64,000 nt of DNA from Arthrobacter sp. ISL-48 (GTDB taxonomy: Bacteria > Actinomycetota > Actinomycetes > Actinomycetales > Micrococcaceae). The notes under the pieces were generated by a model that worked only from the letters and a program-made list of their open reading frames with translations, was not told the DNA's origin and did not search any database. Positions 59,338 to 63,744 of this stretch are shown here, piece by piece (position 1 is the stretch's first letter; each line of letters starts with the position of its first letter). Where the stretch lies: contig NZ_JAGGPL010000002.1 of NCBI RefSeq assembly GCF_018613805.1, positions 1 through 64,000 on the forward strand, read 5' to 3'. The translations under genes were made by a program, and so were the position numbers.

Positions 59338-59607
59338 TCAGTCCAAGACCGATTCCGTGCTTGCCGCGGTCTGCGGCGTCTAACGCGACAGATTTGTCAG
59401 CGGGACGGGAATGTTAACGCAGGATGACCGCGGCGGTGGAATATTACAGCCCTGTCATTGTTATGACGCCGGTGCTAAGGTGCACCTAAGTCCACCCATA
59501 CTCTTGGGGTGGAGGCATTCCTGAGGAGAACCGTTCGCAGCTCGTGGGGGGCAAGTGACGGTATCTCTCGGAAATCTTATGCCCGCACGGACTTGGTCTC
59601 ACACCAG

Positions 59608-60093
59608 ATGGGGAACACCGTGGAAAACACCGCGCCAAAGAAAAAGTTCGTTCGCAAGTTCAGCAAGAAGACAACCGCGGCCGTGACCGCTTCTTTCCTG
59701 ATTATCGGCGGTGGAGCCTATGCGTTCTGGACCACTACCGGCGGGGGCACTTTTTCCGCTCCCAACGCCGCTTCCAACGGTACAGTCGTGCTGAACGCCA
59801 CGTTCGCGTCTGGGCTCACCCCCGGCGCCAGCGTTTCGGTGACCTACACCGCGAACAACGCCGGCACCTCCAGTCTTCGGGTCGGGACGATCAGTCACGT
59901 CGTGAGCACCAGTGATCCGTTGTGCCTCCCGGCGGACTTCACCATCTCCAACGTCGCATCCAACACAACAGTGCCGGCAAGCAGCACAAACTTTGCCCTT
60001 GCCGGTACGGGGACGCTGACCTTCACCGACACGGCCATCAACCAGGACGCCTGCAAGAGCGCCACGGTCACACTGACGCTTACGTCGAACTAG
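59608..60093 (+). CDS. TasA/SipW-type secreted protein
   Basis: A 161-aa protein. A Lys-rich start (KKKFVRKFSKKTTAAV) precedes a hydrophobic signal TASFLIIGGGAYAFWTT, which is the form of SipW-dependent signal peptides; the mature part is a beta-rich Thr/Ser/Asn domain (GTVVLNATFASGLTPGASVS) with two Cys that may pair. Such proteins are TasA/CalY-like fibre or surface proteins. A GTG four codons in (59620), with GGGGA upstream, is an alternative start. No SipW-type peptidase gene lies nearby. The giant repeat protein follows after 84 bp. Confidence 0.75.
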   Translation: MGNTVENTAPKKKFVRKFSKKTTAAVTASFLIIGGGAYAFWTTTGGGTFSAPNAASNGTVVLNATFASGLTPGASVSVTYTANNAGTSSLRVGTISHVVSTSDPLCLPADFTISNVASNTTVPASSTNFALAGTGTLTFTDTAINQDACKSATVTLTLTSN

Positions 60094-60177: not shown

Positions 60178-63100
60178 GTGCATTTCGTGGAACCGGCGGA
60201 GGTGGCAGGAGGGCTTGAGCGCGCGCAGCGTGCCGTAGTCGTCATCATCCTTGCCCTCGCGGCCCTGCTTGCACCGGGAGCCGGGCCCGCCTTTTCGTAC
60301 TCCACCGGTCCGGGGTCCGGCACCGGTTCCTCCTCAATGGGCACGCTGCAGCCGCCAACGAACGTCATTGTCCCGGCGACCAGTACCGGAACGGTGCATC
60401 TGAGCTGGACCGCGGCAACGGGAACACCCAAGCCCACCGGCTATTACGTCACCCGCACCCTGACTGGCAACGGCTCCACCGGGGCGGCTTGCGGCACCAG
60501 CAAGACCGCCACCACTACCGCCCTCTCCTGCGATGATCTCACCGTACCGGTTGGCACCTACCGGTACTCAGTCACCTCCGTCTACCGCACTTGGACAGCC
60601 CCCAGTGCCCTGAGCACCAGCGTCGGGGTCACACCCCCCGGCACGCCAACGAAGCTGGTGTTCATCACCCAGCCTTCCAACTCCACCTCCGGCGTTGCGC
60701 TGCCGACCCAGCCCGCCGTCGCCGTCACGGATGTGAACGGCAGCATCGTCACCACACAGGCGCCCACCCAGGTGACCCTGTCCATTTCAGGCGGGACCCT
60801 CAGCGGCTGCCTATCGGCGGCCACCGTGAACGGCGTTGCGAGCTTTTCGGGCTGCAACGTCTCCGGCGCCGGCAGCTACACCCTGACCGCCACTTCTGCG
60901 CCGCTGACCAGCGCCATCAGCGCGCCGTTCACGGTTGCCGGTCCGGCCGCCCAACTCGCTTTCACGACCAACCCCACAAGCTCCTCCGGCGGCACCGCCT
61001 TCGAGACCCAGCCTGTTTTAGCCGTGCAGGACAGCTCCGGACGGACCGTGACCACCAGCACCAGCGCCGTCACCCTGAGCATCACGGGATCCCCGGCCGG
61101 CTCAGCCCTGGCGTGCACCACGAATCCCGTCACGGCCGCCTCCGGAATCGCGGCTTTCACCGGCTGCAGCGTCAACAAGGCCGGAACCTACACCCTCACC
61201 GCCACCGGCGCCGGCTTCACCACCGTCAGCACCAGCGTCACCATCGCCACCGGACCGGCCACCAGACTGGCCTTCACCACCCAGCCCTCCGGCTCCACCG
61301 GCAGCGCACCGTTCGCCACCCAGCCCGCCGTCAGCATCCAGGACGACGGCGGCAACACCGTCACCACCTCCAGTGCCACCGTGAACCTGACACTCACCGG
61401 AAGTTCGGGTGCGTTCCTGAGCTGCACCGCCTCCGCCGTGGTGGCTGTCAACGGTGTCGCCGCCTTTAATGGCTGCAGCATCGACAAGACCGGCACCTAC
61501 ACACTCACCGCCACCTCCACCGGACTCATCTACACACTCAGCAACACCACCGTCATCGCCGCCGGCGCAGCCACCAAGCTGGGATTCACCACCCAGCCCT
61601 CCGCCTCCAGCGGCGGCGTAGCCTTTTTCACCCAGCCCGTGGTGGCCATCCAGGACGCCGGCGGCAACACGACAGCCAGCACCGCACCTGTCACCCTCAG
61701 CATCACCGGTTCCCCGGCCGGTGCGGTCCTAAGCTGCGCTGCGAACCCGGTCACCGCCGCCGGCGGTATCTCGGCCTTCTCTGGGTGCAGCATCAACAAA
61801 GCCGGAACGTATACTCTGACCGCCAGCGGCGCCGGGTTCACGGCCACCAGCGTGAACTTCACCGTGTCCCTGGGAACGGCTACAAAACTCTGCTTCACCA
61901 CCCAGCCCACCAGCTCCACCGGCGGCATCGCCTTCAGCTCCCAGCCCGTGGTGGCCGTCCAGGACGCTGGCGGCAATACCATCACCACCAGCAGCGCGCC
62001 CGTCACCCTCAGCATCACCACACCCGGCGGCGCCGCGCTGACCTGCACCACGAACCCCGTCACCGCGATCTCGGGTGTCAGCGCGTTTTCCGGCTGCAGC
62101 ATCAACAGGCCGGGCACCTACACACTGACCGCGGCCAGCGGCTCCCTCACCAACGCTGTCAGCACCAGCATTACCGTCACGATCGGCCCGGCCGCCAAAC
62201 TCGGATTCACCACCTCACCGACCGACACCCAGGTCAACACGGTCTTGGCCGTCCAGCCCGTGGTGGCCGTTCAGGACGCCGGTGGCAACACCATCACCAC
62301 GAGCACCGCTCCAATCACGCTGAAAATCACGGCACCCAGCGGCGGAGCCAACCTCACCTGCACCACCAACCCCAAATCCGCCTCTTCCGGTATCGCGTCC
62401 TTCCCGGGCTGCAAGATCAGCAAGACCGGAACCCGGACCCTTACGGCGACCTCCGGAACGCTCGCCGCAGGCGTCAGCTCCAGCTTCAACATCACCGGCG
62501 GCACGGCCACCAAGCTCGCTTTCACCACAAGCCCCACCGACTCAACGGGCGGCATGGCCTTCCCAACGCAGCCCGTGGTGGCCGTCCAGGACGTCAACGG
62601 CAACACCACCTCCAGCACTGCTTCCGTCACCCTCACCATCACCACCCCCGCCGGTGCGGCCCTGAGCTGCACGGCGAACCCCAAGCCGGCCGTCGCCGGC
62701 GTGGCCACCTTTGCCGGCTGCAACATCAACAAAACCGGAACCTACACCCTCACCGCCACGTCGGGCAGCCTTACGGCCACGGCCAGCACCAGCTTCACCA
62801 TAACTGTCGGACCGGCCGCGAAACCCGTATTCACCACCAGCCCGTCCAACACCACATACAGCACTGTCTTCGCCACCCAGCCCGTAGTGGCCGTCCAGGA
62901 CGCCGGCGGCAACACCACCACCAGCACCGCGCCCGTCACACTGAGCATCACCAACCCGGCCGGCGCCGTCCTGAGCTGCACAATAAACCCCGTGACCGCA
63001 GCCTCCGGTGTGGCCGGTTTTGCCGGTTGCAGCATCGACAAGCCTGGCACCTACACCCTGACCGCAACCTCCAGCGGGCTGAGCACCGGCGTCAGCAGCA

Positions 63101-63744
63101 CCTTCACCATCACAGCCGGACCTGCTACAAAACTTACTTTCACCACCAGCCCCTCCGGCTCCACGGGCGGGATCGCATTCATCACCCAACCTGTCGTGAC
63201 CATCCAGGACGCCGGCGGCCACACCGCCACCAGCACCAACTCCGTCTCCCTGAGCATCACTACACCGGCGGGTGCGACCCTGACCTGCACAACAAACCCC
63301 GTGACCGCGGTAGCAGGCGTGGCATCCTTCGGCGGCTGCAAAATCGACAAGACGGGCACTTATACCCTGACGGCAACCTCCGGCACGCTCACAGCGGCCG
63401 CCAGCACCAGCTTCACCATCACAGTCGGGCCGGCAGCCAAACTCGCATTCACCACACAGCCCTCCGGCGCCGCGGCCAACAGCGTGTTCGCCACCCAGCC
63501 CGTAGTGGCCGTCCAGGACCTCGGCGGGAACACGGTTACCACCAGCGCCGCCGCAGTCACCCTGAGCATCACGGGATCCGGCGGCAATGCAAACCTGACC
63601 TGCACAAACACAACCACAATAAACGCCGTCTCCGGTGTGGCTGCCTTTACCGGTTGCAAAATCGACAAAAGGGGAAGCTACACCCTGGACGCAACCTCCA
63701 GCGGGCTCACCGCCGCACGGAGCAACTTGTTCACCATCAGCTAA
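60178..63744 (+). CDS. Giant Ig-like repeat surface protein
   Basis: A 1188-aa secreted protein. N-terminal hydrophobic signal (RAVVVIILALAALLAPGAGP), then a FnIII-like domain (about residues 55-150; TGTVHLSWTAATG, GTYRYSVTSVYR), then ten Ig-like repeats of about 103 residues to the end. Each repeat follows KL-FTTQP-S, FATQPVVAVQDAGGNT, VTLSIT, then CT-NPVTA-GVAAF-GC and GTYTLTATS. A Cys pair is kept in every repeat. No LPXTG or membrane anchor ends the chain. GTG 60178 has GGAGG upstream. It is likely a cell-surface or matrix component made with the TasA-like protein. Confidence 0.88.
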   Translation: MHFVEPAEVAGGLERAQRAVVVIILALAALLAPGAGPAFSYSTGPGSGTGSSSMGTLQPPTNVIVPATSTGTVHLSWTAATGTPKPTGYYVTRTLTGNGSTGAACGTSKTATTTALSCDDLTVPVGTYRYSVTSVYRTWTAPSALSTSVGVTPPGTPTKLVFITQPSNSTSGVALPTQPAVAVTDVNGSIVTTQAPTQVTLSISGGTLSGCLSAATVNGVASFSGCNVSGAGSYTLTATSAPLTSAISAPFTVAGPAAQLAFTTNPTSSSGGTAFETQPVLAVQDSSGRTVTTSTSAVTLSITGSPAGSALACTTNPVTAASGIAAFTGCSVNKAGTYTLTATGAGFTTVSTSVTIATGPATRLAFTTQPSGSTGSAPFATQPAVSIQDDGGNTVTTSSATVNLTLTGSSGAFLSCTASAVVAVNGVAAFNGCSIDKTGTYTLTATSTGLIYTLSNTTVIAAGAATKLGFTTQPSASSGGVAFFTQPVVAIQDAGGNTTASTAPVTLSITGSPAGAVLSCAANPVTAAGGISAFSGCSINKAGTYTLTASGAGFTATSVNFTVSLGTATKLCFTTQPTSSTGGIAFSSQPVVAVQDAGGNTITTSSAPVTLSITTPGGAALTCTTNPVTAISGVSAFSGCSINRPGTYTLTAASGSLTNAVSTSITVTIGPAAKLGFTTSPTDTQVNTVLAVQPVVAVQDAGGNTITTSTAPITLKITAPSGGANLTCTTNPKSASSGIASFPGCKISKTGTRTLTATSGTLAAGVSSSFNITGGTATKLAFTTSPTDSTGGMAFPTQPVVAVQDVNGNTTSSTASVTLTITTPAGAALSCTANPKPAVAGVATFAGCNINKTGTYTLTATSGSLTATASTSFTITVGPAAKPVFTTSPSNTTYSTVFATQPVVAVQDAGGNTTTSTAPVTLSITNPAGAVLSCTINPVTAASGVAGFAGCSIDKPGTYTLTATSSGLSTGVSSTFTITAGPATKLTFTTSPSGSTGGIAFITQPVVTIQDAGGHTATSTNSVSLSITTPAGATLTCTTNPVTAVAGVASFGGCKIDKTGTYTLTATSGTLTAAASTSFTITVGPAAKLAFTTQPSGAAANSVFATQPVVAVQDLGGNTVTTSAAAVTLSITGSGGNANLTCTNTTTINAVSGVAAFTGCKIDKRGSYTLDATSSGLTAARSNLFTIS
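60640..63741 (+). repeat. Ten tandem repeats of about 306-312 bp
   Basis: The repeats encode ten Ig-like units and cover residues 155-1188. Protein identity between units is high at the FATQPVVAVQDAGGNT and GTYTLTAT blocks and lower between. DNA is highly biased to GCC/ACC/GGC codons, so long open frames also appear in shifted and antisense frames. Confidence 0.9.

Follow-up and report, generated by a model that had tools for sequence, protein, structure and literature searches.

How might a long exported repeat protein that carries no sorting signal be held at the surface of an actinobacterial cell? The question is raised by a gene in the first 64,000 nucleotides of contig NZ_JAGGPL010000002.1 of Arthrobacter sp. 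ISL-48 (hereafter the window), which encodes ten immunoglobulin-like (Ig-like) units and stands directly downstream of a small gene, hereafter the partner, that we describe as TasA-like. We tentatively propose, at somewhat less than an even chance, that the product is a sortase-free, disulfide-locked rod that is exported with a TasA-like fibre and probably attached to it through an N-terminal strand. The observations behind this proposal are a coupled Cys pair in each unit, the pairing of the two genes across changing surroundings, a likeness between the mature N-termini of the two proteins, and fusions of related arrays to SipW-type signal peptidases.

Ten Ig-like units with a coupled Cys pair

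The repeat protein consists of a leader, a Gly/Ser/Thr-rich stretch, an FN3-like domain and ten Ig-like units, in that order (Table 1). The units are 101 to 105 amino acids (aa) long (n = 10), and the chain ends straight after unit 10 (...RSNLFTIS) with no LPXTG motif, transmembrane segment or basic tail at its C-terminus; it is not an LPXTG/sortase-anchored surface protein. Ten units with one Cys pair apiece, and the lack of a sorting signal or membrane tail, had both been part of the original prediction and are borne out. In the gene itself, Tandem Repeats Finder reports a period of 309 nucleotides in 8.9 copies with 68% matches. Antisense open frames of 102 aa lie in register with the repeats (window positions 61188-61496, 62742-63050, 63051-63359 and 63360-63668, minus strand) and probably reflect nothing more than the codon usage of this GC-rich repeat.

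The 23 Cys of the protein comprise the pair of the FN3-like domain (105/118), ten unit pairs and one odd residue, Cys 572. Within the units the two Cys are spaced by 15 (unit 1), 17 (units 2-9) or 18 (unit 10) residues, which corrects the 17 to 21 first given. Two relatives also hold ten units, one a full-length protein in genome G016 that is 69% identical and the other in Arthrobacter sp. AL12 (L046). Both keep all 22 paired Cys, at spacings that are equal or differ by one residue (+/-1), so the ten-unit Cys array is not due to chance. In the comparison with G016, six of the ten units (1, 3, 4, 5, 6 and 8) find their best match in the unit at the corresponding position; for units 2, 7, 9 and 10 that counterpart is outscored by another unit, by 2, 2, 4 and 7 points, respectively. 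Of the 9 Cys-paired leader-type relatives in the collection scan described below, 7 retain the Cys pair of the FN3-like domain, at a spacing of 13. The extra Cys in unit 5 (TKLCFTT) is present as predicted and had been thought able to link molecules; neither ten-unit relative carries it (0/2; their Cys total is even, 22), and we reject it as a conserved intermolecular link.

We tabulated the two Cys positions over 242 unit copies from 46 loci, of which 231 were left after removal of 7 that were gapped at a Cys column and 4 duplicates; these units are mutually related, and the counts are given without a probability. Both Cys are in register in 140 units and neither in 76, while 14 units have the second only and 1 has the first only. 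In 13 of the 14 second-only units the first Cys is shifted one residue further on, and in the remaining one (L056) an insertion has moved it to 21 residues ahead of the second. The sole true single-Cys unit belongs to L068. Unpaired units mostly have Gly at the first Cys column (61/76) and Leu or Val at the second (57/76), and paired and unpaired units occur side by side within L052, L063 and L067. Apart from this one unit in 231, the two Cys are present or absent together, as expected for a disulfide, and this supports one disulfide per unit.

A structure model of units 7 and 8, built from a 70-row alignment, is confident (predicted local distance difference test [pLDDT] 97.2; predicted template-modelling score [pTM] 0.80). 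In it, short strands at 55-56/75-76 flank Cys 57/74, and those at 158-159/178-179 flank Cys 160/177; the Cys would face each other if these flanking strands pair together. The highest-ranked Foldseek match of this model is intimin D0-D1 (expect value [E] 1.7e-6), and the next 20 include GH2 enzymes, SbsC, InvD, LigA and FdeC. Structure alignment places it with BbgIII 6qud (Z 12.3; root-mean-square deviation [rmsd] 2.2 over 99 aa) and with intimin 6tqd (Z 11.1; rmsd 7.0 over 180 aa). At the sequence level, PF18565 passes on the whole repeat protein (32.9 bits, cut-off 32), as does fn3_3 (25 bits, cut-off 24.4). Single units give weak Pfam matches scattered over PF18565, PF09134 and others (best E 2.7e-4, PF18565; 9 of 20 members match at E 0.1), and a search of the units against the sequences of solved structures gave chance-level matches only. 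As modelled, the unit has the bacterial Ig-like fold of the invasin/intimin/GH2 type (PF18565, PF09134, PF02369). The earlier impression of an Ig-like protein, for which no described family with this Cys pattern could be named, stands, and its fold is recognisable as a known one; the Cys pair is a variant of that fold, and the Cys decoration alone is unusual. Taken with the coupling of the Cys, this confident model and its compatible strand pattern support the prediction that each unit is locked by its own disulfide, and we consider one intra-unit disulfide in each Ig-like unit probable.

Pairing with an upstream TasA-like gene

Among 59 genomes (the window's own included, 37 of the same genus), the repeat protein was matched in 7, and a scan of the collection with a unit profile returned 25 loci, 22 of them with Cys-paired units; the others are L068 (26 units), L070 (4 units) and L069 (no full unit). 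The 22 Cys-paired loci are not all independent, because L053 and L054 encode an identical protein, though their metagenome-assembled genomes (MAGs) are labelled Acidobacteria and Actinomycetes, and L048 and L049 are related proteins with 49 residue differences. Going by the names of their records, the hosts are, among others, Arthrobacter, Cryobacterium, Glaciihabitans and Microbacterium, together with several MAGs of which some bear the labels of other phyla, and many carriers are cold-associated by name (L047, L048, L056, L058 and others; Cryobacterium, Glaciihabitans, A. psychrochitiniphilus). The distribution is patchy: at E 1e-10, matches were found in 8/295 genomes of the family, 4/396 of the order, 11/396 of the phylum and 1/47 of another family, in overlapping samples. 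Neither plasmids (E 1e-20) nor phages (E 1e-10) gave a match, and there is therefore no sign of mobile carriage in them. The arrays also vary in their settings. In L051 and L062, both from actinobacterial MAGs with no TasA-like or SipW neighbour in view, Cys-paired units stand behind GGYWLVASDGGIFSFG-type repeats; in L063 and L064 they are followed by C-terminal tails, which we take to be of the IPTL sorting type; and a lone paired unit (G014:C90:21085-21486, L039), encoded in a frame of 151 aa and interrupted within the match by a single stop, is possibly the remnant of a lost array.

A TasA-like match lies directly upstream of the repeat gene, on the same strand, in 7 of the 22 Cys-paired loci (L046, L047, L055, L056, L057, L065 and L066), and upstream with one more gene in between in 2 (L052 and L060). 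The partner is directly upstream in the window as well and in G016, where the adjacency falls outside the automatic rule because the open frame overlaps. Relatives of the window's family with unpaired units have the partner upstream in every case (8/8; L036, L037, L038, L040 and L077-L080), as detected by a partner profile built partly from L036 and L038. When neighbours beyond the gene pair were compared at 14 loci, within 4 kb, L055, L057 and L066 had some in common, as did G007 and G013; apart from two partial matches, L037-L056 at 30% and L038-L046 over 141 aa, no others were shared, so that sharing is largely confined to Cryobacterium and to G007 with G013. The flanking genes mostly change among loci. 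The repeat and partner genes thus stay paired where their surroundings differ, and the link between them is supported as real. The suggestion that attachment may depend on the TasA-like neighbour is upheld as far as it concerns co-occurrence of the genes; anchoring itself we infer. A promoter and terminator scan performed at chance level and placed nothing between the two genes on their strand.

The partner has a leader ending in GGGAYAFW and two Cys that are invariant in a ten-row alignment. Its mature form is modelled as a beta sandwich (mean pLDDT 84.4), and residues 1-17, which fall below 50 yet are partly conserved, probably form a free N-terminal segment in that model. A paralogue in the same genome (G000:C33:36087-36581, L041), 52% identical, is found beside exported-looking proteins of 379 and 813 aa, and similar layouts recur in L042, L043 and L044.

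Table 1. Positions of the repeat gene, its parts and the upstream partner gene in the window.
Feature	Position	Strand	Remarks
Small TasA-like partner gene	59509..60093	+	start likely ATG 59608 or GTG 59620; mature from ~59725, FWTTTGGGTF...
Whole repeat protein	60178..63744	+	1188 aa, 23 Cys
Leader, aa 1-40, hydrophobic core AVVVIILALAALLAPGAGPAFS	60178..60297	+	exact cleavage point inferred
Mature N-terminal segment YSTGPGSGTGSSSMGTLQPP, aa 41-60	60298..60357	+	place in the protein most like the mature N-terminus of the partner
FN3-like domain, aa 59-140, own Cys pair 105/118	60352..60597	+	Pfam fn3 E 0.0094, below cut-off
Ig-like unit 1, Cys 211/226	60640..60942	+	
Ig-like unit 2, Cys 313/330	60943..61254	+	
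Ig-like unit 3, Cys 416/433	61255..61563	+	
Ig-like unit 4, Cys 520/537	61564..61872	+	
Ig-like unit 5, Cys 623/640, plus odd Cys 572	61873..62187	+	
Codon of odd Cys 572 (unit 5)	61891..61893	+	not present in either ten-unit relative
Ig-like unit 6, Cys 728/745	62188..62499	+	
Ig-like unit 7, Cys 831/848	62500..62811	+	modelled together with unit 8
Ig-like unit 8, Cys 934/951	62812..63120	+	modelled together with unit 7
Ig-like unit 9, Cys 1037/1054	63121..63429	+	
Ig-like unit 10, Cys 1142/1160	63430..63741	+	protein end

Likeness of the mature N-termini and a possible mode of attachment

With a profile of 12 positions, made from nine partner N-termini (that of L052 omitted), the mature N-termini of the repeat proteins score 6.6-18.5 bits. 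Shuffles of the same residues reach these scores 0 to 15 times in 5000 in all nine proteins (9/9), and in each of six repeat proteins scanned end to end (6/6) the protein's own mature N-terminus is the best place for the profile. The tapA gene of known systems stands beside a TasA-type gene. Judged by sequence, the repeat protein resembles TapA in both respects: its gene appears beside a TasA-type gene, and its N-terminus is like the partner's at the level of a motif. The excerpts of PMC9674648 and PMC10151520 describe TasA fibres that join by an N-terminal donor strand, a TapA N-terminus that resembles that of TasA, and donation of that N-terminus by TapA.

These observations lead us to the following tentative mechanism. 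The sortase-free rod, which comprises ten invasin-type Ig domains behind a leader, a short N-terminus and an FN3-like domain, would be exported, and one disulfide per Ig domain would be formed outside the cell. Disulfide folding of exported proteins is common in Actinobacteria according to the excerpt of PMC9974433, with FimP as an example in that of PMC3485203, and the window's own genome carries VKOR. The rod would be co-expressed with the small TasA-like beta-sandwich protein encoded directly upstream and might share its export route. It would then act in a TapA-like manner, with its N-terminal segment entering a partner subunit as the donor strand, and could cap, start or decorate a TasA-like fibre, reaching outward as a stiff extender or adhesin.

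Fusions of related arrays to SipW-type peptidases

In 8 of the 22 Cys-paired loci (L048, L049, L050, L053, L054, L058, L059 and L061), a SipW-type signal peptidase motif precedes the array in the same chain. Five of these fusions, scanned with TIGR02228, match at E 3e-12 to 3e-11 with 43.3-46.7 bits against a curated cut-off of 51.85; in a genome search with the same model, five score 46.7-50.4 bits and a 982-aa fusion in the genome of L050 scores 56.3. The Ser and GDAN motifs are present in 8/8 fusions and the His motif, as we wrote it, in 5/8. Between the peptidase and the first unit, the fusions have a hydrophobic stretch that ends in AAF(S/T) or SAFT, and in 7 of the 8 loci the gene immediately upstream is small and has a leader end of the same kind, L059 being too near a contig end. 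A leader-end profile of five such small genes, in a scan that left out L049 and L054, finds its best place at the internal stretch in 6/6 fusions, with 20-31 bits as compared with 3-6 for the next. The resemblance of the internal leader to the leader of the adjacent small gene suggests that the chain is cut there, and from the sequences we read the fusions as putative peptidase and substrate in one chain. A search of the fusion-side small gene against the sequences of solved structures gave chance-level matches only.

Further SipW-type peptidases lie outside the arrays. The window's own genome has one above cut-off, of 231 aa, on another contig (G000:C17:69205-69639, L073); behind it is encoded a protein of 149 aa whose leader end (ANASF) is similar. 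Over 23 genome entries, TIGR02228 gives some match in 18 and a match above cut-off in 10, with G258 and the L056 genome being apparently one and the same. In Arthrobacter sp. AL12, a 609-aa frame (L138) joins a SipW-type peptidase to a hydrophobic stretch ending TAHAGFSVSAPTG and then to a further domain, presumably of LamG type, so fusion of peptidase and substrate may be more widespread; L132 (616-aa frame) and L133 (660-aa frame, G007) also encode SipW-type peptidases that are extended by long C-terminal parts. As to how the partner itself is processed, its leaders would place mostly W or Y at P2' (AYA|FW, AFA|YW; cut assumed). LepB cuts poorly before an aromatic P2', as in TasA, according to the excerpt of PMC10269814, which attributes the block to Trp at P2. 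The W or Y at P2' is a weak pointer toward SipW-type processing.

Weighing the explanations

Several results count against attachment of the rod to a TasA-like fibre. The partner model has no Foldseek match at E 0.001 or better: a TRAP subunit ranks first (E 3.5e-3), and the TasA fibre 8aur_A is merely sixth (E 0.031; query template-modelling score [TMq] 0.46). By structure alignment, TasA is not among the 50 matches listed, none of which reaches Z 8; a search against the sequences of solved structures gave chance-level matches only; and no TasA or camelysin model in Pfam or NCBIfam matches the partner at E up to 1. Because no curated TasA-type family matches, the label "TasA-like" refers to organisation and probable fold, not to family. 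The N-terminal motif is rich in Gly, Ser and Thr, its register was chosen by us, and the likeness is one of motif. The small gene upstream of the SipW fusions, considered as a relative of the window's partner, shows no detectable homology to it by profile comparison. No SipW-type match was found in 5 of the 9 genomes with Cys-paired leader-type proteins in the collection scan (L047, L055, L057, L065 and L066), and on present evidence SipW therefore does not appear to be obligatory for the gene pair; G013 and G020 give short partial TIGR02228 matches only, which we take for ordinary LepB. Neither partner nor SipW is in view at L051, L062, L063, L064 and L067 (5 of the 22 Cys-paired loci), with little or no upstream DNA for L062, L064 and L067. 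The same holds for L039 and L101-L104, Cys-paired loci that came from the genome searches, and for the unpaired loci L068, L070 and L105-L110, the flanks being short at some of these loci. Arrays that lack both partner and SipW indicate that the unit is a module used elsewhere too.

These stand-alone arrays also speak for a free-standing rod, a secreted or loosely bound adhesin or extender that is merely co-regulated with the TasA-like gene and unattached to its product. Such a rod would fit a fold shared with known adhesin and S-layer domains and a protein without a sorting signal. It would leave aside the retained pairing amid mostly changing flanks, the similar mature N-termini of rod and partner, and the existence of SipW fusions, and we regard it as a real possibility, if a somewhat doubtful one. 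The fusions themselves, five of the eight matched by profile, could instead point to an accessory that stays with the signal peptidase or the membrane, a tethered stalk if the internal leader is uncut, which would guide SipW to TasA-like substrates. We think this improbable, since the internal leader is the place in the chain that best matches the leader of the adjacent small gene, which suggests cutting, and since the window's array is unfused and the SipW of its genome is on another contig. That the Cys bind metal or cross-link neighbouring molecules, with no disulfide inside the unit, would suit the one odd Cys of the window's copy; the coupling of two Cys in each unit, the even total in both ten-unit relatives and the short strands that would set the Cys opposite each other if paired make it very improbable. 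Attachment of a disulfide-locked rod to a TasA-like fibre is thus the explanation that we carry forward, tentatively.

Relation to known systems

As far as the excerpts of PMC9674648 and PMC10151520 go, the TapA/SipW/TasA system of Bacillus subtilis is similar in having a small exported beta-sandwich protein with a probably free N-terminus, an adjoining accessory protein that has Ig-type domains and an N-terminus resembling the partner's, and a SipW-type peptidase, which here is encoded in the genome or fused in relatives. It differs in that the partner here lies outside the curated TasA families, the accessory is a ten-domain Cys-paired rod, SipW is outside the operon and undetected in several carriers, and the system is known from genes alone. 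The Ig domains of invasin and intimin and the C-terminal Ig domains of GH2 enzymes (PF09134, PF18565; 6tpl, 6tqd, 6qud) share the fold, in tandem in intimin, whereas the units here have a Cys pair where unpaired homologues mostly have Gly and Leu/Val, and no outer-membrane barrel is present. FimP and SpaA pilins, in the excerpt of PMC3485203, are likewise exported proteins of Actinobacteria with Ig-type domains and disulfides, but FimP is built of CnaB-type domains and carries isopeptide bonds as well as an LPXTG tail, of which the tail is absent here. The ice adhesin of Marinomonas primoryensis (excerpt of PMC4083281) is a long tandem Ig-like extender with repeats of nearly equal size (104 residues), which are identical and Ca2+-dependent, in contrast to the diverged Cys-paired units described here.

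Each element is known by itself, be it the fold, the use of disulfides in Actinobacteria or the TasA-type fibre; their combination appears to be new. Within the open-licence PubMed Central literature, the gene pair, the SipW fusions and the Cys pattern are undescribed in the titles and abstract beginnings of the matches listed. More broadly, these loci might represent an actinobacterial donor-strand fibre system with a disulfide-locked rod as its TapA-like initiator, in one branch of which SipW would form a single chain with its own substrate and set the rod free through self-cleavage; we consider this wider scheme unlikely as it stands. If attachment of the rod to a TasA-like fibre is true, TasA-type matrix fibres would extend beyond Bacillus and the archaea in which they have been described, and a group of Actinobacteria would use such fibres in making surface rods that need no sortase, relying on disulfides where pilins have isopeptide bonds as well. 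Proteins that unite peptidase and substrate would offer a compact and directly testable handle on SipW specificity.

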